From the IMG/VR virus record IMGVR_UViG_3300008262_000314, positions 1 through 23,333 of that record: a stretch of DNA of 23,333 nt; one strand, 5' to 3'. The translations under genes and the position numbers were made by a program. Source of the stretch: a virus. Positions 2,143 through 22,689 of the stretch are shown in pieces (position 1 is the stretch's first letter; every line of letters starts with the position of its first letter). The notes beneath the pieces were generated by a model. It did not search any database, had not been told where the DNA came from, and was given only the letters and a program-made list of their open reading frames with translations.

Positions 2143-4488
2143 TTATGCTCCCATCAGCATGAATATAGAGGGGTTGGGATCTGTTGTAATGGCTCCCCAT
2201 GATGCGGTAGAACCATCTGTTGTTAAGTACTTGCCACCGTTTCCAGTTTGGCTAGGTAGTGCATCTACTGCAGCCCATTCGACTCCAAGAGCAGCACCTG
2301 AGTTAGCCTTAAGGAAATATCCGTTTGTTCCTACTGAAAGTTTGCCCACAGTATCTGCCGCGCTAGCAACCAAAAGGTCACCTTTTGCGTCAAAGGTAGT
2401 GTTAGGAATTGCTGTGGCAAGATCAAATGCTGTGAAGGTAATTACTTCAAGGATATCGCTGGCAGCCAAGGCAGCCAAAGAAGTGATGCTTGTACCATTT
2501 GAGGCTGTGTAATCAGAGCCACGAACAAGCAAGATACCGTTTAGATAAACTTGTTCCTTGCCTGCTAGGTAGGATAGAGTCAAGCCATTCGCGTCAGTTC
2601 CTGATACTGAAGTTTCTCCGCCTGTAGCTACAAACTTGTAACGGTAGATAGCAGCAGTTGAAGATATAGATCCCCATGAAGAAGTTCCTGTATCCCATGC
2701 ATACATAGCATTGTCTACTGAGTTCCAGTAAAGAGCTCCCTCAAGAATCGCATTTCCATCGTTATCAAGAGTTGGAGGAGTTGACTTTGCACCAAGATAA
2801 CGATCATCGAAGTTATCATAGGTTGTGGCTGCTGCCGCTGCGCTCGCAGCTGCTGCTGTAGCAGAACCTGCTACTGCATCTACGTATGTCTTAGTAGCAG
2901 CATCATTAGCGCTTGTTGGAACACCTAAGCCAGTTACCTTAAAGTTGTTAGCATCTAGGTTACCTAGTAGTTGACCTGTAGTTCTATTGAGGTATGTACC
3001 AGATAGAGATACAGCACCAGTGTTACCATCAACAGATAGAACTGCATCTGTTGGAGTAAGGAGTTCTTGCCAGTTACCAAGAGTGGATGCTGGGGTTGCT
3101 GTAAGAATGAAAGACTTGTTTACATCTGTACGGACTGCAACGTCACCAATCTGAGCAGTAAGTGCAAGCATCGCAGCTTGAGATGCTACCACAAATGTTT
3201 CAGAGATTGCAAGTGCTGGGAGGTGGTGGGTTGGGACTAAGCCATTACCGTCGAGTTCAGCAATACCATTAGCGACACCCTTTTGACCATTTAGGTATCC
3301 AAGGGATACTGCATCGCCGTTTGCTGTAGGAGTAGCAAGGTTGGTAATCTTTTGGCTATTGAGAGATACAGAGGCAGTTGGAGCAGCCATCTGATCTAAA
3401 CGAGAAGTACGTACTTGTGTATCAAAATCTGAGATAGTTGAGGCTGTTTGAGTTCCTGTGTGGTTAGCACGGGCTAGTGGATCAGTTGCTAACTTGCTAA
3501 GGGCAATAGCGGCTGAGGCATTGATATCAGCGTTTACGATAGTTCCATCTACGATATCCGCAGAAGTAATCGCTCCATTGAGGTCAAGTTTGGTCTTAGC
3601 AATTGCTGCAGTTGCAGAAATGTCTGCGTTTACGATAGTGCCATCAGCAATCATTGTGCTGGTAACTGTGCCTGTATCAGCCTGAGTTACTGCAGTACCA
3701 GAAATCTTGCTAGCAGCAATAGCGGCTATGCCCGAAATGTCCGCATTGACAATTACGCCAGGAGAGATGGCTGTATTGATTGTTACGTTGCCAAGGTCAG
3801 TCATTGTGGCAGAGCCAGCAACGTCTCCATCGATGCTGATTACTGGATCATTTACATCAAAGTTTACCTTGTTAGTTGCATCATCATAGGTAACCGAAAT
3901 ACCAGATTCGGTGTTACTAGAGAACATAGCTCCAACAGCATCTTGAGCAGCTTCTGTAAAATCAGATACAGCAGCAGAGGTAAGAGTTCCACCACCAGCA
4001 GAGTTGGTGTGGTTGTGGGTTGCATTAGTAAATGATGCAATTGTTGGGGTAACAATCGTAGGGTTTGTGTTGAAGACTAGAGAGCCTGTACCAGTTTCAT
4101 CGGAGATAACCGATGCCAACTGAGCAGAGGTTGTAGCAGTGTGAGCTGTAAGGTTAGATTCTTGGTGTACATTAGCCTCACGGAAGTCACGACCAATAGC
4201 CATGTGGCGAACCTTGGCTCCAGCTGAGTGAGAAATTGCTGCTGTACCATCAATAGGACGAACAATTGTAAGCGTGTTGCTGCCAGGGCTAGACGGCGCA
4301 ATTACATCGACAATTTCTTCAAGCGATGTATCTGGGTCAATGACAACGGTGAAGGTTTCACCAGCAGCAGGTGTGATTGAACCAAGCAATCCAGCTGCAG
4401 AGTTGACAACCATAGTTGTCTGAGAGGAGTTCATCGCTGAAGTAAGCGTGGTCTCCTGAGATGTAGAGAGATATTTACGTGTTGTCAT
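2143..4488 (-). CDS. Long tail fibre protein
   Basis: A 781-residue fibre-type protein. The N-terminus (about 1-110) contains a module with TFTVVIDPDTSLEEIVDV and LTIVRPIDGTAAISHSAGAKVRH, of the kind that often precedes phage fibre repeats. About 240-345 holds imperfect repeats of TIVNADIS..AAIA.SKL. It continues with HTGTQTASTISDFDTQV, an Ala-rich stretch (SATAAAASAAAAATTYD), a YLNGILLVRGSDYTASNG segment and FDAKGDLLVASAADTVGKLSVG, all frequent in phage fibres. Enzymatic depolymerase motifs are not visible. The ATG at 4488 overlaps the upstream TAA as TAATG. Host attachment is the likely role; the small genes that follow probably encode its partners or alternative tips. Confidence 0.88.
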   Translation of the reverse strand: MTTRKYLSTSQETTLTSAMNSSQTTMVVNSAAGLLGSITPAAGETFTVVIDPDTSLEEIVDVIAPSSPGSNTLTIVRPIDGTAAISHSAGAKVRHMAIGRDFREANVHQESNLTAHTATTSAQLASVISDETGTGSLVFNTNPTIVTPTIASFTNATHNHTNSAGGGTLTSAAVSDFTEAAQDAVGAMFSSNTESGISVTYDDATNKVNFDVNDPVISIDGDVAGSATMTDLGNVTINTAISPGVIVNADISGIAAIAASKISGTAVTQADTGTVTSTMIADGTIVNADISATAAIAKTKLDLNGAITSADIVDGTIVNADINASAAIALSKLATDPLARANHTGTQTASTISDFDTQVRTSRLDQMAAPTASVSLNSQKITNLATPTANGDAVSLGYLNGQKGVANGIAELDGNGLVPTHHLPALAISETFVVASQAAMLALTAQIGDVAVRTDVNKSFILTATPASTLGNWQELLTPTDAVLSVDGNTGAVSLSGTYLNRTTGQLLGNLDANNFKVTGLGVPTSANDAATKTYVDAVAGSATAAAASAAAAATTYDNFDDRYLGAKSTPPTLDNDGNAILEGALYWNSVDNAMYAWDTGTSSWGSISSTAAIYRYKFVATGGETSVSGTDANGLTLSYLAGKEQVYLNGILLVRGSDYTASNGTSITSLAALAASDILEVITFTAFDLATAIPNTTFDAKGDLLVASAADTVGKLSVGTNGYFLKANSGAALGVEWAAVDALPSQTGNGGKYLTTDGSTASWGAITTDPNPSIFMLMGA
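3491..3759 (-). repeat. Three imperfect coding repeats in the fibre gene
   Basis: Three copies, at about 3702-3759, 3586-3642 and 3491-3546, encode the pattern G(T/V)IVNADI(S/N)..AAIA.(S/T)K(I/L). Spacer lengths differ, and a degenerate partial copy (GAITSADIVD) sits between the last two. Such repeats usually form a trimeric beta shaft or coiled section in phage fibres. They can also be sites of recombination that changes fibre length. Confidence 0.75.
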
Positions 4489-5387
4489 TAGTACCTCGTG
4501 TAGTGGATTCGGACTGGGAATTGGTCACGGAGCTTGCCTGCTTCTTCAGTGAGGCGTTGCTGGTAAAGTGCGAGCATAAAGCGAGCAGCATTGGAGCCAG
4601 ATCCGTATTGAATCTTGGTATCGGCTTGGTCTGCTTCAGCAGAAGTGAATGTGAGACGACCTGGATCGATAAAGGATGCTAGGCGGTAAGAAGCGCCATA
4701 GACGATTACGTCCTTGGTTGAAGATGGCAATCCTGAGACTGTCTCGAAAACGTCGTTGTTGTTGGCAAGGACAGTAGGTTCCTTGCTATAGGTCACCTGT
4801 ACGGTACGACCTGGGGTAATGCGGTCATAGACAGATATGGTCTGACCACTTGCATAAGTTGTCACATTGGCCATAGGGTCATGACGCCATTGTTGGACAG
4901 GCTTCCACTCACCAGTGGGGCCAGGCGTGTCCCAGGATACCCCTAAAACTGTGTCTACGGCCGCTGGGAGGCTGTATGTGGACTGGGTGGCAGTAAGACT
5001 AAAGGTTGTCTTATCTACCCCGTAAAGCTGTGGGAACACCGCTCTAATGGTGTCATTGATAGCACGCTTAACTGAAAGCTTAGGGAATGTAGGAGAGATG
5101 GTTACCTTGGTGTTAGTGGTGTGGCTGGCAGCTGTAGTGCCTTGGTAGCCACGTCCATAAGGGGCTGCTGTAGCAGTACTGGAGACACGATCGTAGGTGT
5201 CAACCCAGATAAGTTCATCGTCGATTTCGACAACACCCTTGCCGATATTGGATACGCTACCTAGACTCAGAGAGAGGGCAGAGGAGTTGATGTCAGCAGT
5301 AAGGTGAGTTGTGCGATCTTGTCGCATAGTGTAGCCATTGAGATTTAGGAGAACTTCATCTACCAAATTGGCAAGGGTTGATGTCAT
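4488..5387 (-). CDS. Putative head-tail or tail adaptor protein
   Basis: A 299-residue protein between the small basic genes and the fibre, joined to both neighbours by TAATG overlaps at 5387 and 4488. The N-terminal part has VVEIDDELIWVDT and RGYQGTTAASHTTNTKVTI, a pattern I associate with phage proteins that attach the tail or fibre to the connector. Then FPKLSVKRAINDTIRAVFPQLYG, a central beta region, and a helical C-terminus (ASYRLASFIDPGR...FMLALYQQRLTEEAGKL). The helical C-terminal pattern recalls tail-tubular or gp4-type adaptors of podoviruses, but I cannot assign a family. Alternative: a baseplate-like or fibre-anchoring protein. A structural role is fairly safe; the precise role is not. 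Confidence 0.6.
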   Translation of the reverse strand: MTSTLANLVDEVLLNLNGYTMRQDRTTHLTADINSSALSLSLGSVSNIGKGVVEIDDELIWVDTYDRVSSTATAAPYGRGYQGTTAASHTTNTKVTISPTFPKLSVKRAINDTIRAVFPQLYGVDKTTFSLTATQSTYSLPAAVDTVLGVSWDTPGPTGEWKPVQQWRHDPMANVTTYASGQTISVYDRITPGRTVQVTYSKEPTVLANNNDVFETVSGLPSSTKDVIVYGASYRLASFIDPGRLTFTSAEADQADTKIQYGSGSNAARFMLALYQQRLTEEAGKLRDQFPVRIHYTRY

Positions 5388-5659
5388 TAGGACGATATCC
5401 TTCTTAGAGCTTCGGGTGCAGCAAGACCATCGGTTCCTGCTAGCACATTACAAATACCTTGAATGTCAAGGAAGGTCTTTTGGTCAGTACGTCCATCTTT
5501 GCGGTTAAGCGCACCTTGAACATCTAGACCAGTAGTACCAGCCCACTCGTTGGCAGCTTCATTATCAGCTTTAACATTGAGAGGGGTGCGGTAGGTTCCT
5601 CCATTGGCGAGTCTGTTCAACTCAGCAGTAAATGGAGATCCTGGATTTCCTACTGCCAT
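5387..5659 (-). CDS. Small hypothetical virion-region protein
   Basis: A 90-residue protein with start and stop both in TAATG overlaps (5659 and 5387). It carries FTAELNRLANGGTYR, then AANEWAGTTGLDVQGALN and FLDIQGICNVLAGTDGLAAPEALRRI. This pattern (a short helical protein ending near LAAPEALRRI) is familiar to me from structural operons of other phages but without known function. Charge is roughly balanced, unlike the strongly basic genes just upstream. Position immediately before the adaptor suggests a connector or neck component; this is inference. Confidence 0.75.
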   Translation of the reverse strand: MAVGNPGSPFTAELNRLANGGTYRTPLNVKADNEAANEWAGTTGLDVQGALNRKDGRTDQKTFLDIQGICNVLAGTDGLAAPEALRRISS

Positions 5660-6054
5660 TATCTATACCTCGCTGTCTTTCGTGCAATTGACTTTGGTTG
5701 TTTGGAGAACTGTCTGCCAGCCTTGGTATCTTGACGCTTCTTTGCAGAAGTTGCTGCGTACTCTTTCTTGCTCAAGGCTTGTCTTGCCTTCTTAGGCAAG
5801 TAACGTTCTCCTGTTGCCTTAGAACCTTGGGTACTGGGTTTACCAGATCTGGTTCCCCACTCTTCCTTGGTCCACTTAGACAAAGACTTTTGTTTGCTGG
5901 ACTTGCTACCTGTGTAGCCACCACCAGCTTTCTTATACTGTTGTGTTACAAGTTGCGCTTTACGCGCTGACCATTGTCCAGGTCTACCGCCTTTTGAACC
6001 AGCAAGGACTCGTCTCTTAATAGACTCACGTAGACCTGGTTTGGTATAAGACAC
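5659..6054 (-). CDS. Basic DUF5872-like protein
   Basis: A 131-residue Lys/Arg/Gln-rich protein. The start is GTG at 6054, sharing its G with the upstream TAG (TAGTG); the ORF ends in a TAATG overlap. The whole length fits the pattern I recall for DUF5872: SYTKPGLRESIKRRVLAGS, GGRPGQWSARKAQL, KKAGGGY, LSKWTKEEWGTRSGKPS, GERYLPKKARQALSKKEYAAT and a basic tail. That family is found in cyanophages, other aquatic phages and large DNA viruses of algae; its function is unknown. The charge suggests nucleic-acid binding, perhaps inside the capsid, but no DNA-binding fold is recognised. Family recognition is from memory, and a profile search would decide it. Confidence 0.75.
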   Translation of the reverse strand: MSYTKPGLRESIKRRVLAGSKGGRPGQWSARKAQLVTQQYKKAGGGYTGSKSSKQKSLSKWTKEEWGTRSGKPSTQGSKATGERYLPKKARQALSKKEYAATSAKKRQDTKAGRQFSKQPKSIARKTARYR

Positions 6055-6497
6055 TAGTTACCGTACTTGTTCTTGCCGCCAAGAAGTCCTGGGAATAGAC
6101 CCTTTGGATTCATTGGTCTTGGTGACTTAGATGTGTACTTCTTTGCAGCAGCCTTCTTGGTTGCTGGTTTGCTCTTGTTGTAAGATGCGCGTGCTTCGTC
6201 TGGAGACTTAGCAACTTTCTTAACTGGAGCCTTCTTAGCATAAGCGGCACGAGCTGCATCTGGAGACTTAGCAGCAGGAGCAGCCTTTGTACGTGCAGCA
6301 GCTACACGCTTAGCACCGTACATACGGGTTACACCTTGGATGAACTCAGCACGAGCACCCTTAGGGGTCTTACCAGCAGCAGCGAGGGCTTTGGTCATAC
6401 CCATTTTTTTGATTTTATCGATTGTGGCTTGGCTTACAGGAGTATAAAGCTTTTCTCCCTTAGAACCTTTTCCGCCACCTTTTGGCATTTTCTTCAT
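6054..6497 (-). CDS. Lysine-rich histone H1-like small protein
   Basis: The ATG at 6497 (MKKMPKGG) is chosen because it forms the same TAATG overlap as its neighbours; another ATG two codons upstream would also work. The 147-residue protein has a conserved-looking N-terminal half (GEKLYTPVSQATIDKIKKMG, TKALAAAGKTP, EFIQGVTRMYGAKRV) and a low-complexity C-terminal half with two copies of KSPD(A/E)ARA(A/S)Y followed by KKAP.KK or KPATKK. The Lys/Ala/Pro tail resembles bacterial and eukaryotic H1-like tails by composition only. It may bind DNA in the capsid or cell. Identity is unknown. Confidence 0.78.
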   Translation of the reverse strand: MKKMPKGGGKGSKGEKLYTPVSQATIDKIKKMGMTKALAAAGKTPKGARAEFIQGVTRMYGAKRVAAARTKAAPAAKSPDAARAAYAKKAPVKKVAKSPDEARASYNKSKPATKKAAAKKYTSKSPRPMNPKGLFPGLLGGKNKYGN

Positions 6498-6787
6498 TAC
6501 CATTTAACCCTATCTGCCCAATATGCGGCACTCATTTTTCCTTTTGCAATGTTTCTACGATGACGCGCCTTGAAACTCTTGCGCTTCATCTTCATTCTTT
6601 GTGACTCCCCAGCCTTTGGCTTACCAGCAGTACTTGCGCCTTGCTCTCCAAATCGGATTGTCTTTACTTGACTACCCTGCTTAGCCACAACAACGTGTGA
6701 CTTCTTAGGGTGGTTAGGAGTACGTTTAGGCTTGTTAAAACCTGAGACTCCAGCCCTAGCGAGTCTTGGATCTCTCTTGCTTGCCAT
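6497..6787 (-). CDS. Small basic conserved protein ending AAYWADRVKW
   Basis: The ATG at 6787 gives 96 residues; a GTG two codons upstream at 6793 is an alternative, and AGGAAAG lies upstream of both. It overlaps the previous small gene by about 32 nt in another frame. Features are GVSGFNKPKRTPNHPKKSHVVVAK, FGEQGASTAGKPKAGES, and a strongly basic end MKMKRKSFKARHRRNIAKGK followed by MSAAYWADRVKW. I recall this C-terminal pattern from small proteins of aquatic phages, function unknown. High Lys/Arg content again suggests nucleic-acid binding. There are no cysteines or metal motif. Confidence 0.78.
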   Translation of the reverse strand: MASKRDPRLARAGVSGFNKPKRTPNHPKKSHVVVAKQGSQVKTIRFGEQGASTAGKPKAGESQRMKMKRKSFKARHRRNIAKGKMSAAYWADRVKW

Positions 6788-6908
6788 ATTCACCGTACTT
6801 TCCTAATATCGCTCGTATGGTTCCGTTCTTATTCAGACGAACCACTTTCCCGTCCTTAATCTGGACAGAGTTAAAACCTCTATGGGTCTTATATTGTCCA
6901 GATGACAT
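6756..6908 (-). CDS. 50-residue basic protein
   Basis: ATG at 6908 forms a TAATG overlap with the upstream stop; the frame ends with TAG at 6756, inside the next gene. The product is MSSGQYKTHRGFNSVQIKDG followed by a KVVRLNKNGTIR segment and a basic end (KQERSKTR). There are 7 Lys and 5 Arg against 3 acidic residues. The single small domain looks beta-rich (VQIKDGKVVRL). It fills the only gap between two convincing genes and fits the overlap pattern, which is the main support; length alone would not justify it. Confidence 0.65.
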   Translation of the reverse strand: MSSGQYKTHRGFNSVQIKDGKVVRLNKNGTIRAILGKYGEYGKQERSKTR

Positions 6909-7078
6909 TACTTACCCTTGACTCTCTTGAGACGTGGGTTCTTGCGTTTCGCAGCAGGACTTGCCTTGCGAGATGACGCGGCGAGGATTGCACCAGCACG
7001 CTCCATCGACACACCTGACTTGCGAGCGATCTTCTTCTGAACTGCCTTGAACCCTGGGTGCTTGGCAGACTTCTTCAT
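6908..7078 (-). CDS. 56-residue strongly basic protein
   Basis: Starts with ATG at 7078 (ATGA overlap with the upstream stop) and ends with TAA at 6908 (TAATG overlap downstream). The sequence begins MKKSAKHPGFKAVQKKIARK, continues SGVSMERAGAILAASSRKAS and ends with a PAAKRKNPRLKRVKGK tail. I count 13 Lys and 6 Arg against one acidic residue. The GVSMERAGAILAASSRKAS segment is a likely amphipathic helix, and I recall nearly identical short proteins in other environmental phages, supporting a real conserved gene. Function is unknown; DNA or RNA binding is a composition-based guess. Confidence 0.78.
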   Translation of the reverse strand: MKKSAKHPGFKAVQKKIARKSGVSMERAGAILAASSRKASPAAKRKNPRLKRVKGK

Positions 7079-7224
7079 CGCACATACTTTCCAGGATTCT
7101 TGTTCTGGCTCTTCATTGGCTTCTTTAGAACGATTGACTTATCAAGTGCGTTCATCTTTGCAATCTTACGAGTCTTGGTACGACCACGTTCAGCTTTTTG
7201 TTGCGCTGTTAGTTTTGCCGCCAT
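7075..7224 (-). CDS. 49-residue basic protein
   Basis: ATG at 7224 overlaps the upstream TAA (TAATG) and the TGA at 7075 overlaps the next ATG (ATGA). The product starts MAAKLTAQQKAERGRTKTRK and ends KKPMKSQNKNPGKYVR. There are 11 Lys and 4 Arg against 2 acidic residues. No recognisable domain is seen. Support rests on perfect packing between two neighbours with the same type of junction and similar composition. It is probably a member of the same basic-protein set. Confidence 0.68.
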   Translation of the reverse strand: MAAKLTAQQKAERGRTKTRKIAKMNALDKSIVLKKPMKSQNKNPGKYVR

Positions 7225-7373
7225 TATTTCTTTTTCGCTTTCTTCTTAACAGCCTTCTTCTTGGCCTTCATCATCATGGCTTTTTCTTCCATCTTTTCAG
7301 CCTTTGCGTACATCTTGGCTGCTTTCTTACCCTTAGCTGTGTAAGGGAATTTCTTTCCGCTAACCATTGGCAT
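7224..7373 (-). CDS. 49-residue lysine-rich protein
   Basis: ATG at 7373 and TAA at 7224 both lie in TAATG overlaps. The product begins MPMVSGKKFPYTAKGKKAAK and ends in a run of AKKKAVKKKAKKK; 19 of 49 residues are Lys against 3 Glu, a net charge near +16. The centre (MYAKAEKMEEKAMMMKAKKK) would form a helix. N-terminal FPYTAKGKKAAK is a pattern I recall in other short phage proteins. The poly-Lys end is typical of non-specific nucleic-acid binding, but no function is known. Confidence 0.75.
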   Translation of the reverse strand: MPMVSGKKFPYTAKGKKAAKMYAKAEKMEEKAMMMKAKKKAVKKKAKKK

Positions 7374-7642
7374 TAAATTAACCCTCCTGTTGAGTCGTCC
7401 GCTTTGAACGCCTTGCCTGCTCTGTTACTTACCTCAACCGCAGTCTGTATGTCTCGCATACGAGTTGATGACGGTTGAATTCCTTGTGCTCTAGCATCAC
7501 GATATGCCTGGAGCTCTGCGTCCCACTTCTTGGTAGTCATAGGAACTCTTGATGACGCTTCTCCTGCATTCAGATTCAAACCTAGAATCTTGCATCCAAA
7601 GCATCCATCTACATCCGTAGGATGTGTTTGTCTATGTAACAT
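7373..7642 (-). CDS. Small CxxC-containing conserved protein
   Basis: An 89-residue protein with ATG at 7642 behind a GGGGGACAG ribosome site and a stop in a TAATG overlap. The N-terminus HPTDVDGCFGCKILGLNLNAG has a CxxC pair (Cys14, Cys17), followed by KKWDAELQAYRDARAQGIQP and a C-terminal helix (IQTAVEVSNRAGKAF). Similar HP..V.GCFGCK proteins recur in actinophage genomes as far as I recall, usually next to the capsid gene. A single CxxC could be half of a metal site in a dimer or an intermolecular site. Its role is unknown; a head or neck position is inferred from context. Confidence 0.8.
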   Translation of the reverse strand: MLHRQTHPTDVDGCFGCKILGLNLNAGEASSRVPMTTKKWDAELQAYRDARAQGIQPSSTRMRDIQTAVEVSNRAGKAFKADDSTGGLI

Positions 7643-7650
7643 CTGTCCCC

Positions 7651-7902
7651 CTAGACAGTTTGAACTGTGTAACCTGCTGCTTCTAGCGCTGCCTTTTCTG
7701 TAGCCGATACCTCGTAAATGTGACCACCCAAGTAATACAAGTCAGCATTAGCCAAATCTTCAGCATACGGAAAGCGCTCTTGACGATAGACACCGTTCTC
7801 CTTTATGACAGTAATACCGCGTTCTAGCTTGTATCTGTAGTGCAGTACGTTGTCTCCTGCAGGTCCTTCAGATACTGTTGGTGGTGTAAAGATGAAAGCC
7901 AT
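7651..7902 (-). CDS. Small hypothetical protein after capsid gene
   Basis: An 83-residue protein behind a strong AAAGGAGA ribosome site just upstream of ATG 7902. Its sequence starts MAFIFTPPTVSEGPAG and has LHYRYKLERGITVIKENGVY, YAEDLANADLYYLGGHIYEV and a C-terminal helix with AALEAAGYTVQTV. It looks like a compact alpha/beta fold. It follows the capsid gene by 63 nt, with a stable hairpin between. Capsid decoration or head completion is possible but unproven. Confidence 0.8.
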   Translation of the reverse strand: MAFIFTPPTVSEGPAGDNVLHYRYKLERGITVIKENGVYRQERFPYAEDLANADLYYLGGHIYEVSATEKAALEAAGYTVQTV

Positions 7903-7926
7903 AAGTCTCCTTTAGTGGACTCACCA

Positions 7927-7950
7927 CCAAGCAGGGTTTCCCCTGCCTGG
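7927..7950 (-). other. GAAA-tetraloop hairpin between capsid gene and next gene
   Basis: On the minus strand CCAGGCAGGG, loop GAAA, then CCCTGCTTGG form a 10-bp stem with one G-T wobble. GNRA loops are exceptionally stable in RNA. No T-run follows, so it is not a classic terminator. It may protect the capsid mRNA 3' end, cause partial attenuation or be a processing site. Confidence 0.7.
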
Positions 7951-7965
7951 CAGTCAATCAGCTAA

Positions 7966-8952
7966 CTAGGCTGTTGGACGGACAGACGATGCTGTCTCGA
8001 TACGCCATAGGGCTTCTGAACGGTAACGGTTCCAGCCAAGGACGCCGTACCAGCCGATTGGGCGGAGACGCATCAACTTGTCTGTAACTGGACCGATAAC
8101 TGTGTGTGGTTCTTCTGCAACTGCTTCTGCAAGAGCCTGTTGACCCATGATGAAGGTTGAGTAGACACGAACCTGGCTTCCGCCAGATCCTGAACCAGCC
8201 TGTGAGTTTGGTAGGCGTGGTGACTCTACGAAAGCAACGCCTTCGTATGTTCCAAGCTCACCTGCGTAGATACCAGCGGTATCAACGTACTCGTGTGGCT
8301 GACGCCATCCTGCAGTTCCTGTTTCTGCACGAAGGTCGTGAGAAACTTCTGGGTGGATGTAGGAAGCGTATAGATTTCCACGGCGTGGCACAACGTTTGC
8401 TGCGCGGAGCTTCGCTACTGCGTAGCGGATATCGCGAGACTTGATTGTGTCAGTACCAGTGATGGTGGTGATTGCTGCAGAGGTGGAGAGTGATCCAGCG
8501 GATTCGCGGATTACTTGTGATCCACCATTGAGAACGTCACGTACGATTGTATCGAGTGAGTCGTTCATGTTGAATGCAACAATGTTTGCAAGAGCTGGCT
8601 CTACATCAGCGAGTGAGAAGAGGTCGAGCTTGCGGGTTGAAATGATTGAGTTACCGTACTCATTGAGAGTAACTGCAACAGTGCTGGTTGCAGGAATTGC
8701 AACTGCATCTGGATCGACAGTTTCTGTCAATGCGGTGGTGGCAACTGCGAGGTCATTGTAAAGTTGGAACAATACAGATGAACCTGCGTGGGACTGTTGT
8801 GCAGGCTTCTTGTCAGCAACAGAGCGGAATGATGGCACGGAACGAAGAGCGAACTCTACGAGCTTGTCATACGCCTGAGTAACAAGGTTAGCACCGACAA
8901 CTGTACCCGCTTGACCTGCTGGCAACGCAGCAGAGGTATACAAGTTAGGCAT
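7966..8952 (-). CDS. Major capsid protein, N4-gp56 type
   Basis: A 328-residue protein starting at ATG 8952 with AGGACAGG upstream. The arrangement matches the N4-gp56 family of HK97-fold capsid proteins: N-terminal LVTQAYDKLVEFALRSVPSF, then SVLFQLYNDLAVATTALTE, a beta-hinge VAVTLNEYGNSIISTRKLD, helix DSLDTIVRDVL, YAVAKLRAANVVPRRGNLY, the IHPEVSHDLRAE segment and the C-terminal WYGVLGWNRYRSEALWRIE. It would form the icosahedral shell. Scaffold lies 26 nt upstream. The family assignment is by eye; a distant P22-type relationship is the alternative. Confidence 0.88.
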   Translation of the reverse strand: MPNLYTSAALPAGQAGTVVGANLVTQAYDKLVEFALRSVPSFRSVADKKPAQQSHAGSSVLFQLYNDLAVATTALTETVDPDAVAIPATSTVAVTLNEYGNSIISTRKLDLFSLADVEPALANIVAFNMNDSLDTIVRDVLNGGSQVIRESAGSLSTSAAITTITGTDTIKSRDIRYAVAKLRAANVVPRRGNLYASYIHPEVSHDLRAETGTAGWRQPHEYVDTAGIYAGELGTYEGVAFVESPRLPNSQAGSGSGGSQVRVYSTFIMGQQALAEAVAEEPHTVIGPVTDKLMRLRPIGWYGVLGWNRYRSEALWRIETASSVRPTA

Positions 8953-9581: not shown

Positions 9582-11378
9582 TTATAGTAAGCCCGTTACT
9601 CCTGTACGTAGGGCTGTTGTTGATAATCCAGACTGTCCTCTAAACGACTGGATTTCTTGTTGAGCAAGTTTCTTACGGCGTTGTGATGCAGTTCCAAGGA
9701 ACTGTTCAGCCTCTAGTTCTTGCTGTACCTTTGTGGCATCAGCAGCTCCACCAGCCAAGTTACGCTCGTAGATACCTGAAAGCTTCTCAGTAGGTCTGAG
9801 TTGCTCTGCGATATTCTCGTAGCCTTCACCTGCTAGTTGTGTAATCTGAGCCTCGGTATAACCAAGTGCTGTCAGACGAGCAGCTTGCTGCTTAGCGAAG
9901 TCTGTATCAAGCTTGATGCCTGATGCTTCATTTGCTCTACGGATTGCTTCAGTAGCAAATGCACCAGAAGTACGACGATCTTCAAGAGCCTTAGTTCCAA
10001 CATTTGGATCTAGGAAGAATGATGTCAAGTCTGAGGCAGCATCAATATACTTAAGATCCATGAGAGCCTTAACGTAGTAAGGATCAGCATTCAGCGAACG
10101 CAGACGTGCAGCATTGGCACGCTCATCTAGTTCTGCTACAGAGACATCGTTCTGCATATACTTAATGATAGAATCATCACTCTTGAATGCATCTCTACCT
10201 GTAGGGCTAGTTACGTACTTATCGATAACACGCTTGTATCCAAGAACTAAACCTACAAGTTCGCCAGGCTTTCTCTTGGTTGTCAACTTCTCATTGAACT
10301 TACCAAAGTCTTTATAGAACGGAGAGTCAATAGTGTTGCCGGATTTATCTTGATATGTAGGTAGATATAGATATTGATCTACTACGTTTTCAAGTTCGTT
10401 CTCACCTGCAAATTTAGCATCTTTAATAATGGTTCTAAAATAGTCAACGCTTGCATCTACAGTAGATGCAGGTAAGCCTGCAGCAAGAAGTTTAGCCTTG
10501 AGGATTAACCATTGTGTATTGAAGTCAACTTGTGGAGTTGTAGTAGTGGTTGTAGGGGTAGGTGTATCTCCATCACCTTGGTCGTCTGCGTTACCGCCTC
10601 CGCCACCACCTCCGCCGCCACCGCCAGATCCTCCGCCACCGTTACCGCCACCACCATCGCCAGTACCATCACCAGCACCACCGCCATCACCTGCGCCACC
10701 ACCAGCTCCGCCATCGCCGCCAGTAGTAGTTCCACCACCGAAAGGCATGTCTTCGCTAGGAATTACGTTACTTCCAGCACCACCATCAGCTCCGTCGGTT
10801 CCGCCAGGAGTTCCCTTATCAAGTCCAGAACCAGCAGCAATTCCACCCATGCCAGGAAAAACACCATAAGGTGGTCGATCGTCTATCTTTCCTACAGGAC
10901 CTTTAACAACATTATCATCAGTTTTCTTAGTTGTTTTACTAGGTGTCTTTGTTGTTGGCTTAGGAGCAGGTTCAGGAGCTTTAGCTGCAGTTTTAGTTGG
11001 AGTAGACTTAGGAAGGTTACTTGGGCCAGGAGCCTCTTCTGCTTTAGGTGCAGCCTTAGCTGCAGGAGCAGGCTTAGGAGCTTCTGCTTTAACTTCAGCA
11101 ACTTTAGTCTTAACAGCCTCAGAAACTTTAGTTATAGGACTATTCTTGGATGTAGAAGCACCAAGATCAACAGCCTTCTTAAGATTTTCATCAACTTGTT
11201 TAGAAAGTTGGTCTACTTTTTTGACATCAGCAGCAGTAATCTTTGGCTTATCAAGGATAGCATCGATCTTCTTTTCAATGTCTTTAGCAGTTTGAACTGC
11301 CTTATTTGCCTCTAGAGCCTTAGGTAGGCTCTTGGCAATATCGACTACTGTCTCAACAATTTTCTTTTTAGGAGCCAT
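9582..11378 (-). CDS. Putative internal virion protein with Gly-rich linker
   Basis: A 598-residue protein starting in a TAATG overlap at 11378. Residues 1-100 are helical and Lys/Ala-rich (KKKIVETVVDIAKSLPKALE); 100-160 are Pro/Ala/Thr/Lys-rich; 188-268 is almost pure Gly with Asp, Asn and Ser; 272-282 is a Pro/Thr linker; 286-598 is a helical domain (LILKAKLLAAGLP, YTEAQITQLAGEGYENIAEQ, KKLAQQEIQSFRGQSG). The C-terminal FRGQSGLSTTALRTGVTGLL style is known to me from minor head proteins of environmental podoviruses. Position with the 404- and 1930-residue genes suggests a set of proteins ejected with DNA, like T7 gp14-16 in concept. Homology to those is not claimed. Confidence 0.6.
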   Translation of the reverse strand: MAPKKKIVETVVDIAKSLPKALEANKAVQTAKDIEKKIDAILDKPKITAADVKKVDQLSKQVDENLKKAVDLGASTSKNSPITKVSEAVKTKVAEVKAEAPKPAPAAKAAPKAEEAPGPSNLPKSTPTKTAAKAPEPAPKPTTKTPSKTTKKTDDNVVKGPVGKIDDRPPYGVFPGMGGIAAGSGLDKGTPGGTDGADGGAGSNVIPSEDMPFGGGTTTGGDGGAGGGAGDGGGAGDGTGDGGGGNGGGGSGGGGGGGGGGGNADDQGDGDTPTPTTTTTTPQVDFNTQWLILKAKLLAAGLPASTVDASVDYFRTIIKDAKFAGENELENVVDQYLYLPTYQDKSGNTIDSPFYKDFGKFNEKLTTKRKPGELVGLVLGYKRVIDKYVTSPTGRDAFKSDDSIIKYMQNDVSVAELDERANAARLRSLNADPYYVKALMDLKYIDAASDLTSFFLDPNVGTKALEDRRTSGAFATEAIRRANEASGIKLDTDFAKQQAARLTALGYTEAQITQLAGEGYENIAEQLRPTEKLSGIYERNLAGGAADATKVQQELEAEQFLGTASQRRKKLAQQEIQSFRGQSGLSTTALRTGVTGLL

Positions 11379-12593: not shown

Positions 12594-15500
12594 TTAGTCC
12601 TTTGCCTTCATAGTTCCTGCGAATACACGATAAAACATTGGAGCGAATGCTGGGTTCTCTACCATGAGACTGTCAGCAAGTTCTTGTAATTGCCCACGAA
12701 GTTGTGTTGCGTACCAGTGCGTGCTTCCTAGGTTAGGTTCTGCTGTAACACGGGTAATCTTTAATGATTCTATAGCTGCAGAATATGCCTGATAGAACTT
12801 CAAGGTTTCCTCATACACGGGAGACATCTTGAAAGCATCATCCTGCAAAGCCTTGGCAACTGTAGCAATACGCTCTTGATCTGTGCCTACGTTGATGATA
12901 GATGCTGGAGCAGCACCACCAAAACGCTTATTAAGGTTATTGATTTCATTTGCGTACCAAACATTTGAATAACCCATGGCAGCCTGCTGTTCTGAGATCT
13001 GAGACTTGGCCATCTTGTAGATAAGTTCTTCTGCAGCGTTAGCCAACTCTTCAGTGCTGAGTGCCTCACGGCGTCCTGTAAGTTTCTGCCAAGCATAGTA
13101 TGCTGTAGCGCCTTCTCCACCGGGGAAGAAGAATGGGACAACATCGCCGTTCTTAGTAGCGTACTTATCGGCTGCTTCAGGGTGCATGTTCAAGAATGTC
13201 CAAGCATCCTTAGTTCCTGTAACAGTACGAGTAGAACCACCTAGGATTGCTAATAGGTTGCGCTCGCCAAACTCTGTTGAGAACTCGTGAACTGCTGCAA
13301 AGTAATCTCCAGGGTGCTTACGGCTAATCTGATCCCATGCATTATAGAGCATGGTCATGCTAGCGAAGTCAACCTTCTTGTCATTTGGAATCTTAGCAAA
13401 GACTTCCTGAGAAGGTGTAGCAGGTGCTATGCTCTGGAAAAGAGCAGTAAGCAAGCCAATGCCACGTGACATTCCTTCGGCATCTTTGAATAGTCGTGTT
13501 CTTGCCTCATCATCAGCAAGTGGGTTGTCACCATAGTCGCCAGTAGAGGCTAGGTATGAAGCCCAATCTTTGACACCACGCTCAACTGTCTTCTGATCGT
13601 TGATAGCGTACAAGAATGTTTTACGTAACCATGCTGGGAGCAAAGACTCAACTGGTGCTTCTGTCACTCCGAAAGGAATTACGATTCCACGTAGAGTATC
13701 CCATACGGGTCCAAATGCTGCAGACTTACCGCTTGCTTGGTAGATAAACTGACCAGCAGGGCCAATGCCTGGGATACCAGGATTGACGTTACCAAAAGCC
13801 AAGTTAAGAGACTGTACAGGAGCACTTAGTTGTAGTGCTTGTGCAGCATCTGCGTTCTTTCCAACCAATGCGCCTAGGAATGAACCAGCAATTGGATAGC
13901 GGAAACGCTTCTCACCAAACTCATCTTCATAGATAAAGCCTTGACCTTCGTCATACTTAACACCAGTGATGTCATAGATAGCACTTGTACCCTCTTTGTT
14001 CAGAGAGTTGTACGCACGGCCCAACTTGTAGAAGTTAATCTGGTTAGATGCGTAGAGTTGTCCCCACTTACGGATGGTGTTGAACTGTGCCTGGATGAAC
14101 GGGAAGATAAGACGCATAGCCTGAGCGGACTGTAACTGCTTAGATGCATCGTAAAATAGTTCTTTAGTATACTTAGCTCCAGCTTTAGCAGCCATAGAGT
14201 TAAGGTTCTCTAGAGTAACTCCACCCTCATGAACGTAGTTATCGCCACGCTTCTTGAGTTCTTTTTCGATAATCTTGATAGTTTGGTGCTTACGACCCCA
14301 AGCCTTACCATTCTTACGAAGGGGTGCTAATGTGTCTACAGCAGCCTTTTGTAGTTTAATCAAGTCTGGAGTATCAAGCATTGTAGCATAACGGCCTACG
14401 TGATCCCAATATGCCATGCGGTATTCAGGACCAAATGCTGCTAGGTTCTCAAGTTTAGCGTTAAGATCAAAGAACCAGTCTACTGCTTTAGTGAGCATCT
14501 TAGGCTCAGCCTCAGCAAAACGCTTGGTACGAGATAGCAATACTGTCGAATCTGGCATATCTTCACGCTTAAAGAAAGATGCTAGTTGCGACTTGAAGCC
14601 AATCTCTAGGTCATCCATCTCGACTACATTCTTGAGTTTAGCGTAGTCAGGAATAGTAATATCTGATGTTCTATTGCCTTGAGTAATAGTTACTTTGCCA
14701 TTAGCAAGCATCTCACGGATGTACTCAGCCTTAGGGCCTTTGCCACCGATTGACTGTAACGCATACTCATAAGAACCTGTAGAGTTAATATCAAACAGAT
14801 AAGTTCTCAAGTTATCTACGTTGATGTTGTCCTTAGAGAACGGCTTTGCTGTGTCCTTTAGGATAATCTTGTCAAAGTTAGATACCTTCGCACCTTCAAC
14901 TTCTCGAGATGTACGAGCACCACGATGTATCTTTTCAAGGATATCTAGACCCTGCTTCTTCGTGGTTAGATAGTTGATTAGGTCATCTTGTAATTCAGGC
15001 GTGCGAGCGCGTGCCACAAGTGGCATTAGATCGTCTTTATAGAAGCGCATGAGAGTCAATGCAAGACCCTTGTAGAATGATTCGTGCGTGCTTCCAACTA
15101 CTTCGTATATTTTACCAACGAAAGCAGTACGAGGATCGCCAGCACTGATACCACGCTTCATGAACTGCATGTATTCATCTAGTGCTTCAGTTACAAGCTT
15201 CTCAGAGATATCATCATTGAATCTATTTCCGAAGATATCGTTCTGCATCTTACCAATGCGAGATGCCAATGCTTGCATCTTTGTACCTTTAGGATTAGCC
15301 ATAGCCATCGCTAGGTACTGGATAGGGTGATTAAATATGCTATCGTGTCCTGAGAAAAACATACGAAGTTGCATTTCACCAATGTTACGTAGTGTGTAAG
15401 ATACACGGAATGCTAGTTGCGCTGTACGCCAGTAGTCACCTAGTTGGTTGGCAGTAGTGCCAAGCGCCTTTGCTTTACCATACAATGGTACGTTCTTGTT

Positions 15501-18386
15501 GTATGTATTGATGGCATCAACAATAGGACGTGTATCTGGTAGGCGGATTACGTCATCTAGGAACTGGTGAGCATAGTTAGCACCAGTCATAGCGAGTTCT
15601 TCGCCATTAGCAAACATAAGTTTAGGGTCTGTACCCTGTGCTAGGTTAGCAACGCTATAGTTGCGGATAACTGCCTGGTCTTTACCAGAGATCCTAAGTG
15701 CATCATCTAGCACCTTAGCAAGTTCAGTATCGCCTTTACCTATAGTCTTGACTAGGTTCTCCTGCATCATACGCATGCCGTCCATGATAATCTTGGAGCG
15801 CGCTGTATAATCTTTTTCGCGGATAACCTTGTTGATTAGATCATCAACTAGATCTTGCGGCACTTTTGCTGATGTAAACCAGTCATTTAGACCACGAGCA
15901 AGTCTATCCATATCATTCAAAGGTAGGATAGTTGAGCGAACATAGATGTTCGTAAGAGCCTTTTCAGCCCTCTCAACGAATGCTACAGCCTTCTGATTAA
16001 CGGGCTCAGATAACTTAATCAAAGGATTCTTGCTGTTAAGAGCCATCTGTGTACGGAATAGCAAGCCACGAGCAATCTGTGGATCTGATTCAGGTGATGC
16101 TAGGTGACGTAGGAATACTGAAAGTACGCCTTCTACTGTATCAGCCTGTGCTAATTCGTCAACAATTTCCATGTCTAACTTGCGTCCGAATAGTCTATCT
16201 AGGCGCATAGTGTTCTTTTCGCCAGCAACTACTTCAGCAACAGCGAGGAATCGCTTGCCGAATAGGTACTTCATAGCCTTAACACCATCACCAGATAGCC
16301 CACCGAATAGCGAATCAGTTAGACCCACTTCAGATGAAAAGAATTCTTTAGCGTAGCGAGTGTCACCAATCTGCATATCAAGATCCATAACCTTAGCAAT
16401 ACCGATATTATCGGGATCGTTAAGCATCATCTTGAGGAGTTCTGGGTCCTTAGATGCATAGTCACGTAGAGTCTCGATATCTTTCAGGCGTTGTGCCATG
16501 GCAGCCTGCTCAGCCTGAGCCTCATTGAGAGCCTTCTGGCTCTTGGCTAGGCCTTGTTCTGCTCTTTCGATAGAACTATCTATCTTAAACATAGCCTGTG
16601 CGCCGATAGTAGGATCAGCAGATTCAGCTAGAACTTCGCTGATCTTGACCTTACGGGCAGCAACATTATCTACGTTAGTGAGAACTACGCCCCCTATATC
16701 ATCAAAGATTGAACGTACGTTAGAAAATCCGTCCACCTTATAGATATCTTGAATCAAATCTACTACATACGCCATAGCGCGTTCATCTTTGAATACTGCT
16801 ACAGCTTTTAATGTCTCAGCGAGAGGTGCGGCGACTGTATCTTCTAGCATTGTCATGACTACACGACTGATGGATTCGTTTTCGTTTCTTAACTTATCGA
16901 ATACTTCACGTGTAGATGCTGGCAAAGTAGTATCTTCTGGTGCTGCTTTGATACGATTAAGTAATTCTGTACGGCGCTTTAGTTCCTGTGTGGCTGCCTT
17001 CTGTGACATCTTAGATGTGTCATCAGCCAAGTCAAGCAGTTTAGGAGCCTTTGCTCCAAAGTAACGAGCAACGAATTCATCGTTACCACGTGTAGCAAAT
17101 GTTAGTGCGCCAGCCTGTGGTAGTTCTTCAAAGAATACTCCACCAGGGAATGCTCCACGTGTATTGTAGTAATCCGCAGATAACTTAGACAAAGCATCAA
17201 CAGATTCTTGTTGCTTGCCTGTATTCATGCGTTCAATTATGAACTCGCCAATTGCACGGTTGTCTAGGGCTACGCCCTCTGGACCAGCAAGGTTTGCAGC
17301 ATTCTTGCTATCAGCAGCAAATGCTTTAGCAGCGGCAATATAACCTGCTTCAATGCGTCCTTGCTGTGCTTTCTGATATGCCTGCTCTGCCTTGAGGTAC
17401 TTGTTTTCCGCTTGACGAGTAACTTCCTTAGCAAGGCCAGAACGCTCTTTGAGGAGCTTATTTTCTTCCTTGGTAAGGCGAGCTGCCTCAGCTAAACGAT
17501 CAGATTTTTTCGCTAATTCATTTTGGGCATCAATTGTAGCCTGTTTAAGAGCCTTGCCACCTTTACCGATCTTAGTTACAGCACCAGGACCAATCCATAC
17601 TGATGGGTCTAAAGCGATGTTTAGAGTAGCATCAATGATGCCTGACATCACCTTGTACTGTGTACTGTTAGGGTCAGAACCTACAGTTTTCATAGCAGCA
17701 CGTCCAAGAGTGAACGATTTGCCATTGATAAGTCCGTAAGCGCTCATAGCCTTAGCCTGAGCCTTCTGTACTTTAGACTTTTCCCCAATAAAGAAACCTG
17801 AACCTGTGTCTACCTTGGTTGGATTAGCCAAAAATTGGCGAGTAAGCTGACCAATCTGTGTGGTTTCACCAAACATAGCAGTAGGAGATAGGTTTGAAAT
17901 CAATTCTTCTACGCTTGGCTTCTGCTTTTGCGTAGCAAGTGCGTAAGCGTCACGTCCGATTGTGCTTACATACTCGTAAGGTGCGCGTAATGCAGAGAAA
18001 AGTACGCGTGAAGTACCCTTGAGTCCACCATAAAGTACATCTTTGATGTCTCCCGCTAAAGATTTATCGTTATCTAGCGCAGATTTAATGTTTTTGGTGT
18101 TAAGTAAATCTTGTTTTAGTTGTGCAAGACCATCAACTGATGCAATCTTACCGATTCCAGGTGTATCTGGCTTCAAACCAAGCTTGACTGCAGACATGAT
18201 GAAGTCTTTGCTCTGATTTGGATAAGCATTTACCCAGTTACCAAAGTTTTCATACTGATTAGGCGAAAGCATAGCCATCTCAGTTTGAACAAGTCGATCA
18301 AGTTGTGACTGTACATTATCAAAAATGCCAGTCATCTTGATCTTTTTATTCTTCGCGGGATTCCACGCGTCTAATGGTGAACCCAC
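12594..18386 (-). CDS. Giant 1930-residue putative ejection protein
   Basis: The start is GTG at 18386, overlapping the upstream TAG (TAGTG), with GAGGGA five bases before it; the internal ATG 17 codons in has only a weak ribosome site. The protein is soluble, mostly helical, with likely coiled coils near 280-345 and 603-643 and no signal peptide. Segments such as LFSALRAPYEYVSTIGRDAYALA (about 130-150) and PAWLRKTFLYAIN near the C-terminal third could be amphipathic. I see no lysozyme, RNA polymerase (N4-type), protease or transferase motif. Size and position downstream of the portal match large ejected proteins of podoviruses (T7 gp16, N4 vRNAP) in concept; a tape measure is less likely because tail-tube genes are absent. 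Confidence 0.65.
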   Translation of the reverse strand: MGSPLDAWNPAKNKKIKMTGIFDNVQSQLDRLVQTEMAMLSPNQYENFGNWVNAYPNQSKDFIMSAVKLGLKPDTPGIGKIASVDGLAQLKQDLLNTKNIKSALDNDKSLAGDIKDVLYGGLKGTSRVLFSALRAPYEYVSTIGRDAYALATQKQKPSVEELISNLSPTAMFGETTQIGQLTRQFLANPTKVDTGSGFFIGEKSKVQKAQAKAMSAYGLINGKSFTLGRAAMKTVGSDPNSTQYKVMSGIIDATLNIALDPSVWIGPGAVTKIGKGGKALKQATIDAQNELAKKSDRLAEAARLTKEENKLLKERSGLAKEVTRQAENKYLKAEQAYQKAQQGRIEAGYIAAAKAFAADSKNAANLAGPEGVALDNRAIGEFIIERMNTGKQQESVDALSKLSADYYNTRGAFPGGVFFEELPQAGALTFATRGNDEFVARYFGAKAPKLLDLADDTSKMSQKAATQELKRRTELLNRIKAAPEDTTLPASTREVFDKLRNENESISRVVMTMLEDTVAAPLAETLKAVAVFKDERAMAYVVDLIQDIYKVDGFSNVRSIFDDIGGVVLTNVDNVAARKVKISEVLAESADPTIGAQAMFKIDSSIERAEQGLAKSQKALNEAQAEQAAMAQRLKDIETLRDYASKDPELLKMMLNDPDNIGIAKVMDLDMQIGDTRYAKEFFSSEVGLTDSLFGGLSGDGVKAMKYLFGKRFLAVAEVVAGEKNTMRLDRLFGRKLDMEIVDELAQADTVEGVLSVFLRHLASPESDPQIARGLLFRTQMALNSKNPLIKLSEPVNQKAVAFVERAEKALTNIYVRSTILPLNDMDRLARGLNDWFTSAKVPQDLVDDLINKVIREKDYTARSKIIMDGMRMMQENLVKTIGKGDTELAKVLDDALRISGKDQAVIRNYSVANLAQGTDPKLMFANGEELAMTGANYAHQFLDDVIRLPDTRPIVDAINTYNKNVPLYGKAKALGTTANQLGDYWRTAQLAFRVSYTLRNIGEMQLRMFFSGHDSIFNHPIQYLAMAMANPKGTKMQALASRIGKMQNDIFGNRFNDDISEKLVTEALDEYMQFMKRGISAGDPRTAFVGKIYEVVGSTHESFYKGLALTLMRFYKDDLMPLVARARTPELQDDLINYLTTKKQGLDILEKIHRGARTSREVEGAKVSNFDKIILKDTAKPFSKDNINVDNLRTYLFDINSTGSYEYALQSIGGKGPKAEYIREMLANGKVTITQGNRTSDITIPDYAKLKNVVEMDDLEIGFKSQLASFFKREDMPDSTVLLSRTKRFAEAEPKMLTKAVDWFFDLNAKLENLAAFGPEYRMAYWDHVGRYATMLDTPDLIKLQKAAVDTLAPLRKNGKAWGRKHQTIKIIEKELKKRGDNYVHEGGVTLENLNSMAAKAGAKYTKELFYDASKQLQSAQAMRLIFPFIQAQFNTIRKWGQLYASNQINFYKLGRAYNSLNKEGTSAIYDITGVKYDEGQGFIYEDEFGEKRFRYPIAGSFLGALVGKNADAAQALQLSAPVQSLNLAFGNVNPGIPGIGPAGQFIYQASGKSAAFGPVWDTLRGIVIPFGVTEAPVESLLPAWLRKTFLYAINDQKTVERGVKDWASYLASTGDYGDNPLADDEARTRLFKDAEGMSRGIGLLTALFQSIAPATPSQEVFAKIPNDKKVDFASMTMLYNAWDQISRKHPGDYFAAVHEFSTEFGERNLLAILGGSTRTVTGTKDAWTFLNMHPEAADKYATKNGDVVPFFFPGGEGATAYYAWQKLTGRREALSTEELANAAEELIYKMAKSQISEQQAAMGYSNVWYANEINNLNKRFGGAAPASIINVGTDQERIATVAKALQDDAFKMSPVYEETLKFYQAYSAAIESLKITRVTAEPNLGSTHWYATQLRGQLQELADSLMVENPAFAPMFYRVFAGTMKAKD

Positions 18387-19050: not shown

Positions 19051-20793
19051 TTAGCCCCCGAGTCCTGCCAATATTGACCCTAAGTCTGGTGCTTGTTGAG
19101 GGACCCCACCAGAAGGTAATCCAGGAGCGGCTGGGGACGGGGGAGCCTGCTCAACTGGGCCTTGTGCGCCTGGTGGAGTCATTCCTTCCTGCATCGGTGG
19201 TTGTTCAGGAGCCTGAGGAGGCGTGAACACGGCCAATGCAGCAGCTTCTATACTGTCGCCCTTTTGTCTACGTTCGATAACATCTGCAATCTTCTGAATC
19301 AAGGCTGAAGGATCTTGTCCTTGGCTAGCCATAGCAGGGATTGCTTGTGCAGTTGCGGTGATAGCAGCACTTAGATTATCGCGCATCTTTTCAACTTCAA
19401 TACGCTGTTCTTCTTGTGATACGTTCAAACTCCAGTTAAGTTCTCTACGAACAAAGTCTTTAGATACAAGATCTGCACCCAAGGCTTGAAGGGAGAAAAT
19501 CAGAGCACGCGATGGGTCAAGACCAGCCATCAAGCCGTAGCGAACTTCAATTGTGTGGTCGCTTTTAATATCCTTGCTTGGCATGTACTTTAACTCGTAC
19601 GGAGTACCCTGCGATACGCCTCTGACGCTCTTCTCTTCATTGAAGAGTCTTTCATCCATATCAAAGCACATCGCGATGACTTCTTCAAATGTCTCAGCAA
19701 GAATGATTTGACCAGCCTTGACTTGAGAATCGAAAGCACCGAGAAGTGCCTGGACACCTTGACCAGTAATAATACTTGCGTCAATGTTTCCAGTTCTACC
19801 TTCAGGATAACGAGCACCGAGTCTGAGTTCAGACTGTAACGCTGCTTGCTCCTGAAATGCTGCTTGTGGTATATCCAATCTGACTCTACCAATGCCTTGT
19901 GGGTTAGCAGTTCGGATAACTGCATCAGGACCCATTGGCATATCGAGAACATCGTTTGGCACAACTAGCGGAGCTTGTACTGCTTTCTCAGCAGCCTCCA
20001 TTGCTAGATTTGCAAAACGAGCACGTGCTAGTTGGACATAGAGCACATCGTCAAATTGTCCCCGTGCTTCATCATCAATACCAGGACGGCGCGCAACCTT
20101 TACAGTCATCTTACCCATAAGGTTACGTGCTGCGCTTAGTATAAGATTATTACGGCTTGGTACGAAAAGAACAGTTACATCCTTATCGGTGTAGCGGATC
20201 ATCTCTACAAGTGCGTTTGTATCTTGATTAAAACCAAGTTTACCCAGAAGCGCCCCCGCGTATTCTGGGTAGTCATTGGCGAGTTCGCCAATAGTTTTCA
20301 TGTATCGCTTGGCATAGGCCACACAACGGCCGAACCTGTCAAATTCTGGGTAAGCCCCCATTGGATCTTCGACTCGTATGCGTGGCAGATTTGTTTCAAA
20401 GTCTGGCTCTACGTGAATTGGTAGGAAGCCATAACTGAAATACCAGTCAGCACCCCAGTACATCTGTGACTGTAGGCGTGACATATAAACGTAGTTGTTA
20501 GCAATCATGCTGCGCTTATCAGCAAAAGCCTTAGCGCGATCAGATGTAGTATTGCTTGTACCGCAGTTAAACGATGGTAGTGGCGCTAGAACTTCAGCCA
20601 AGTCACGGGCAGCAACATCAACAAAGTTGGCCACCATCGGGCTTGACATACCTTCAGGGAATAGATCTGGGAATACCTCAGTCATTCTTCCCTTGCGAAC
20701 AGCAAGCAGGTCAGACATGCGCGCATCGCGATCGCGATTACGCTCCTTCATGTTCTGCACTCGCCGTGCAATTGTATCGATATCGAACGCCAT
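19051..20793 (-). CDS. Portal protein
   Basis: A 580-residue protein starting at ATG 20793, 7 nt after the terminase stop, with AGGAT upstream. It has the portal layout: helical N-terminus (IARRVQNMKERNRDRDARMSDL), then PMVANFVDVAARDLAEVL, wing strands around DWYFSYGFLPIHVEPDFE and IRVEDPMGAYPEFDRFG, a long C-terminal helical part with LAETFEEVIAMCFDMDERLF, and helix VSQEEQRIEVEKMRDNLSAA. The last 75 residues are Pro/Gln/Gly-rich and likely disordered. It would form the dodecameric ring through which DNA is packed by the adjacent terminase. Family call is by context and pattern. Confidence 0.88.
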   Translation of the reverse strand: MAFDIDTIARRVQNMKERNRDRDARMSDLLAVRKGRMTEVFPDLFPEGMSSPMVANFVDVAARDLAEVLAPLPSFNCGTSNTTSDRAKAFADKRSMIANNYVYMSRLQSQMYWGADWYFSYGFLPIHVEPDFETNLPRIRVEDPMGAYPEFDRFGRCVAYAKRYMKTIGELANDYPEYAGALLGKLGFNQDTNALVEMIRYTDKDVTVLFVPSRNNLILSAARNLMGKMTVKVARRPGIDDEARGQFDDVLYVQLARARFANLAMEAAEKAVQAPLVVPNDVLDMPMGPDAVIRTANPQGIGRVRLDIPQAAFQEQAALQSELRLGARYPEGRTGNIDASIITGQGVQALLGAFDSQVKAGQIILAETFEEVIAMCFDMDERLFNEEKSVRGVSQGTPYELKYMPSKDIKSDHTIEVRYGLMAGLDPSRALIFSLQALGADLVSKDFVRRELNWSLNVSQEEQRIEVEKMRDNLSAAITATAQAIPAMASQGQDPSALIQKIADVIERRQKGDSIEAAALAVFTPPQAPEQPPMQEGMTPPGAQGPVEQAPPSPAAPGLPSGGVPQQAPDLGSILAGLGG

Positions 20794-22672: not shown

Positions 22673-22678
22673 ATAAAA

Positions 22679-22684
22679 CCTCCC
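22679..22684 (-). promoter_or_regulatory. Ribosome binding site for terminase
   Basis: GGGAGG six bases before ATG 22672 decides the terminase start over the upstream TTG. Confidence 0.8.
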
Positions 22685-22689
22685 GTTAT

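Follow-up and report, generated by a model that had tools for sequence, protein, structure and literature searches.

Virus-encoded basic core proteins are already known from eukaryotic viruses and, in a weaker form, from bacteriophage T4. The packaging of phage DNA is usually described in terms of cations and polyamines, with little protein or room for it, and several basic proteins are held in PBCV-1 virions (PMC3281028). Tlr6F, which has been credited with importance in diverse viruses, was reported by Yutin and colleagues to be of unknown function and to occur in nearly all polinton-like viruses (PLVs), in several virophages, in many Megavirales and in some phages that are poorly characterised (PMC4642659). 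With the terms tried, our literature search brought up no report of protamine-like proteins in tailed phages, nor did it find a functional paper on DUF5872, DUF5754, DUF6321 or DUF6496, all of which recur below. Here we describe a cassette of seven genes for small, basic proteins set among the head genes of an aquatic bacterial virus. The cassette is real, conserved and modular, and it is undescribed as a system in the literature and databases searched.

The cassette and its surroundings

The window, which is the whole stretch of DNA analysed, is a linear virus record of 23,333 bases. Its late genes all lie on the minus strand and run from terL and the portal through the capsid, the cassette and the adaptor to the tail genes. 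The gene of the large terminase (20801-22747) is followed by that of the portal (19051-20793), by genes of 78 and 138 residues, and by the gene of a 1930-residue protein (12594-18386), which stands between the portal and scaffold genes. Pfam yields no match for the 1930-residue protein and PHROG only a weak local one; it may be a large internal protein or an ejected one. A 404-residue gene and a 598-residue gene (9582-11378) come next, and in several relatives (L022, L035) parts of the 598-residue protein are found again as genes of their own, downstream of the tail genes. The gene of a scaffold-like, acidic 173-residue protein then precedes the major capsid gene (7966-8952; Pfam Phage_capsid_3, phrog_1357). 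Among named cultured phages, the capsid protein is closest to the major capsid proteins of Streptomyces phages (53-56% identity), which hints at an actinobacterial host.

The capsid side of the cassette is formed by two genes for small conserved proteins, g83 (7651-7902) and g89 (7373-7642), the latter adjoining the cassette. Between the capsid stop and g83 the minus strand can form a strong RNA hairpin (7896-7970; -36.6 kcal/mol, z -4.6) without a T run, which may mark or stabilise the end of the capsid mRNA; a hairpin is found again in 13 relatives, with changes on either side that preserve pairing (6 of 8 pairs). On the other side, the small gene g90 (5387-5659) separates the cassette from the SU10-type head-tail adaptor gene (4488-5387). 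The initial annotation had placed the run of small genes inside the virion gene block, and these flanks bear it out.

All seven frames that it had claimed are present, from 7373 down to 5659, on the minus strand, which it had left unstated. They are, in order of transcription, b49a (7224-7373; 49 residues, net charge +16), b49b (7075-7224; 49 residues, +13), b56 (6908-7078; 56 residues, +18, with a weak match to phrog_1999, E 0.0054), b50 (6756-6908; 50 residues, +9), b98 (6497-6787, or to 6793 with a GTG start; +23), b149 (6054-6503; 149 residues, +31) and b131 (5659-6054; 131 residues, +30). The GTG at 6793 gives b98 98 residues, and the likelier ATG at 6787 gives it 96; the first ATG of b149 yields 149 residues and the next one 147. 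Adjacent genes overlap by 1-7 nt except for b50 and b98, whose overlap of 32 nt (6756-6787) is coding DNA common to two strongly conserved proteins. The summed net charge of the seven proteins is +140. The extreme content of Lys and Arg noted earlier is confirmed, with 19 Lys among the 49 residues of b49a and 19 Lys or Arg against one acidic residue among the 56 of b56. The b149 protein combines a conserved front part with an Ala/Lys-rich, histone-H1-like repeat tail.

A net charge of at least 0.15 per residue was found in 7 of 7 cassette genes and in 1 of the 18 other frames of the window (Fisher 1.7e-5); this sole exception, at 22795-23136, may not be a gene. Comparison with 11 relatives yielded dN/dS values of 0.046 for b98, 0.084 for b49a, 0.094 for b131, 0.20 for b50 and 0.225 for b149, with 0.090 for the capsid gene. 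The value for b56 (0.083) comes from three pairs only, and b49b is saturated at synonymous sites, so that only a pN/pS of 0.30 was obtained. Purifying selection, whose absence the initial annotation had named as an argument against the set, is thus clear for most of it, with dN/dS between 0.05 and 0.23 where measurable. Chance open reading frames are ruled out by conservation, dN/dS, the charge statistics, the PHROG matches and the order kept in close relatives. Matches to a dedicated sigma-70 promoter for the cassette were no commoner than in shuffled sequences, and the share of AAG among Lys codons, taken as a sign of high-expression codon bias, did not differ from that in other genes (p 0.21).

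A shared and shuffled gene pool

Eighty IMG/VR loci were retrieved by means of the window's capsid protein, and those with a capsid of ~70-100% identity were treated as blocks. Cassette reading frames were chosen by a simple dynamic programme, and the resulting 53 blocks are non-independent samples. In 53 of 53 blocks, g89 and g90 enclose a series of tiny basic frames. Together these hold 330 proteins, 299 of which have a net charge of +7 or more; 24 of the 31 exceptions belong to one glycosyltransferase-like family of 221-243 residues (phrog_34859) inserted in the run. This gene (for example L022:10008-10679, with homologues in ~24 relatives) lies inside the cassette in many relatives and is absent from that of the window.

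The members of the slot are drawn from ~14 recurring families, which comprise the seven of the window and others such as DUF6321 (E 3e-19), DUF6496 (E 1e-12) and a family with the motif FWDKKNPK...GRPYPNLVDN (phrog_34011). No DUF6321 gene occurs in the window. The b49b family (49-153 residues), which evolves fast, is present in 45 of the 53 blocks, the b50 family in 44 and the b149 family in 35. The b49a family was found in 14 loci of its own cluster and in 24 of a sister cluster, and was assigned to phrog_33179 through a cassette homologue. In relatives, b131 appears either whole or as two genes. Order and content differ among relatives with near-identical capsids, and the order is kept in close relatives of the window. 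Since families are shuffled, split and fused within the slot, the locus is a modular cassette and not a fixed operon, and a fixed seven-gene system is ruled out. What had been proposed as an operon of seven therefore stands as a stop-to-start series of real, conserved genes and falls as a fixed set; likewise, synteny holds for the slot, which always contains tiny basic genes in the 53 blocks, but not for the order of the families. A capsid of this type can do without the cassette, because in L072-L080 (Streptomyces-phage-like, ~55% capsid identity) the interval holds three larger neutral or acidic genes.

Members of the same pool occur in unrelated phages. By tblastn, b98 was found in 49 phage records, nearly all with aquatic hosts or sources, including Synechococcus phage S-CBS2 (74% identical), Roseobacter CRP phages, SIO1, P12053L, HMO-2011, MED4-184 and S-CRES1, and it is present in at least 600 IMG/VR stretches. 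In a scan of bacterial genomes the b98 matches were almost all on MAG contigs, many of which are probably phage contigs binned with their hosts. Among the 352 genes lying no more than three genes from b98, 127 are small and basic, compared with 47 among the 409 lying further out (Fisher p 5e-16, an optimistic value since the loci are partly related). The closest large non-basic neighbours of b98 match major head, large terminase, portal and head-tail adaptor families; in L104, for instance, the order is a 708-residue protein (-26), a scaffold-like 325-residue protein (-44), b98, b131 and a 383-residue protein.

Methylophilales phage MEP402 carries a b49a-like gene, DUF6321, the N-terminal part of b131 and its C-terminal part consecutively beside terL, and similar runs of pool genes are found in EXVC031P, MED4-184, S-CRES1 and S-CBS2. 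Of two T7-like phages, P-SCSP1g has DUF6321 and a second protein of +15 to +18 between capsid and adaptor, and HTVC304P has such a pair between scaffold and capsid, so that cassette-type genes occupy the same slot beside unrelated capsids. The C-terminal part of b131 and b98 are fused in a single open reading frame in L134 and L158, a natural fusion which argues that the two act together. Together with the shared neighbourhood, the fusion upholds the earlier suggestion that the parts belong together.

Profile searches gave matches for b98 and b131. The b98 protein matches phrog_7595 over its full length (E 9.6e-43, residues 4-98 on profile positions 2-96 of 96), and b131 matches phrog_17747 with its N-terminal part (E 1.8e-18) and phrog_14910 with its C-terminal part (E 1.7e-31). 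These families are of unknown function, in agreement with the earlier remark that members of the set resemble unnamed aquatic-phage proteins. The fit to DUF5872 (PF19197), also proposed before, is seen in part of b131 only: the first 85 residues score 28.9 bits, above the gathering cut-off of 27.5, whereas the whole protein scores 21.9. The best-supported Pfam similarity of b98 is to DUF5754 (PF19058), that is Tlr6F, at 14.5 bits over ~30-45 aligned residues, which is under the 27.4-bit cut-off. The DUF5754 model matches 21 of 38 records (E 3e-4 to 0.09), none of the 38 over the cut-off, and the matches that were checked fall on the b98 gene. A remote relationship between b98 and DUF5754 is thus likely but unproven. 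A match of b98 to phrog_220 (E 1.8e-4), a family labelled 'minor head protein and DNA pilot', was set aside, as no such fusion was recognised in the loci.

Candidate roles of the cassette proteins

The reading that we prefer, with a probability of roughly one half, is that the cassette proteins bind DNA, are made together with the capsid and come to lie within the packaged genome or on it. The cassette would be one version of a modular set of small basic nucleic-acid binders, produced late alongside the capsid. Its proteins would bind the phage genome mainly through their charge and enter the head with the DNA or before it, by contacts with scaffold, capsid or DNA. Inside, as 'core' proteins of loose order, they may neutralise the packaged DNA, organise it or protect it, and possibly leave with it at ejection. 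Their charge and low complexity suit non-specific DNA binding, and the basic charge also fits binding of RNA or of intracellular DNA. As a matter of plausibility only, it would take ~57 copies of each protein to neutralise a tenth of a 40-kb genome.

The head interior is pointed to by the slot among head genes, by charge and low complexity, and by a T4-like leader on cyanophage DUF6321 proteins. The stand-alone DUF6321 proteins of three cyanomyoviruses begin with MKTYNDFITE (S-CREM1), MKTFKQYITEA (S-SZBM1) and MKSFKDLRSDITEA (S-CAM3, with a putative cut between MKSFKDLRSDITE and AAW). They resemble the leaders of T4 ipII and ipIII (MKTYQEFIAEA) and of ipI (MKTFKEF...ITEA). In T4 this leader sends the internal proteins into the prohead, and the prohead protease removes it. 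Other cyanomyoviruses carry DUF6321 as the final module of longer basic proteins, in some cases after similar xxE/G or xxE/A sites. None of the seven window proteins has a T4-type N-terminal leader; what they share with DUF6321 is the pool, and for them the leader is evidence by association. Capsid packaging is thus supported indirectly, by the leader in three cyanophages and by the position amid the genes of scaffold, capsid and adaptor.

Neither of the predicted structures yielded a fold that could be used. The b98 model (pLDDT 64, pTM 0.38) had no significant PDB match by Foldseek, with a best Z of 3.4 on a second look. The b131 model (pLDDT 71), whose two-helix N-terminal part is confident, had no PDB match, and its matches in BFVD were all unnamed viral proteins. 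No sequence relatives were found in the PDB at significant E.

Cyanophage S-SZBM1 also encodes, between its terminase genes, a 707-residue, +65 protein (S-SZBM1_194, L094:5253-7376) composed of a DUF3008-like N-terminal end, basic linkers and an S-AdoMet-lyase-like domain (PF23780). Trypsin handles proteins rich in Lys and Arg badly; despite this, S-SZBM1_194 should be visible if it is abundant in the virion. The virion proteome of S-SZBM1 comprises 30 proteins, including _190 and _195 of the same cluster, and lists neither _192, its DUF6321 protein, nor _194 (PMC9146016). This one proteome counts against the idea of virion proteins put forward in the initial annotation, whose interpretation as a whole finds partial support. 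That of P-SS2 is uninformative, because the small proteins detected there are acidic or neutral and unrelated.

The missing DUF6321 protein favours assembly-phase factors, which would bind DNA, RNA or an acidic scaffold in the infected cell, in packaging, scaffold exit or concatemer protection, and would not be retained in the mature virion. The strongly acidic scaffold-like and portal genes among the neighbours also suit such factors, but the T4-like leader on DUF6321 points to prohead entry, at least in cyanomyoviruses, and we regard this role, one of the two main rivals, as rather unlikely. The other, less probable again, is that of ejected internal proteins acting in the next host on the nucleoid or against restriction and other defences, like T4 IPI, with the variable part of the cassette as a host-specific repertoire. 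Content does vary between close relatives inside fixed flanks, as it would for host-interaction genes, and T4 internal proteins have the leader seen on DUF6321. However, b98 and b131 are conserved as much as or above the capsid protein, unlike typical host-specific effectors, and are common to phages of very different hosts.

Improbable, too, are late regulators that would bind RNA or ribosomes and favour late translation, and whose link with the head genes would be no more than a place in the same operon. The proteins are small and basic, as ribosomal proteins are, b98 has a weak, non-significant match to the ribosomal L24 profile (E 0.46), and one b98 homologue is annotated beside a ribosomal L37ae-type label; nevertheless, the head-gene neighbourhood persists in unrelated genomes, and no significant structural or sequence match was found. 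Ordered capsid decoration, cement or head-completion proteins, which the position right after the capsid genes would suit, are very improbable given the strong charge with low-complexity tails and given that P-SCSP1u, the sister isolate of P-SCSP1g (in whose genome the cassette-type slot genes were read), has a shell of major capsid protein alone without a cement protein (PMC10575957), a structure that is silent on disordered internal proteins.

Comparison with known systems

If the proteins are present in virions, as in the preferred reading of DNA binders packaged with the genome, a DNA-coating basic set would be unusual for a tailed phage. If abundant marine and freshwater phages carry a conserved and repeatedly recruited set of this kind in their head operon, this would challenge the usual picture of packaging, and would provide the first functional hypothesis for several DUFs, Tlr6F included. 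A broader and more doubtful extension, offered tentatively, is that many aquatic tailed phages pack their genome with a swappable protamine- or histone-like set, a phage 'chromatin', from a pool shared with giant and polinton-like viruses, and that Tlr6F, DUF5872 and DUF6321 may be virion DNA binders in all of them.

Among the described families, PHROGs 7595, 17747 and 14910 have b98 and b131 as clear members by sequence (E 1e-18 to 1e-42), and PHROGs lists them without the cassette context. The front part of b131 is DUF5872-like, and relatives regularly have DUF6321 in the cassette. DUF5754/Tlr6F of polinton-like viruses, virophages and giant viruses is a small protein like b98, whose top Pfam match it is in many records, and both DUF5754 and DUF5872 are annotated in the giant virus CpV-BQ1. 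T4 IPI, IPII and IPIII are likewise small proteins packed with DNA, and share their leader with cyanophage DUF6321; they are only mildly basic (+2 to +9), unlike the window proteins. Baculovirus P6.9, the adenovirus core proteins and the basic virion proteins of PBCV-1 are small or very basic and coat packaged double-stranded DNA, as is proposed here. Those proteins have been shown in virions, their viruses are eukaryotic ones, and the likeness is drawn without a claim of homology.
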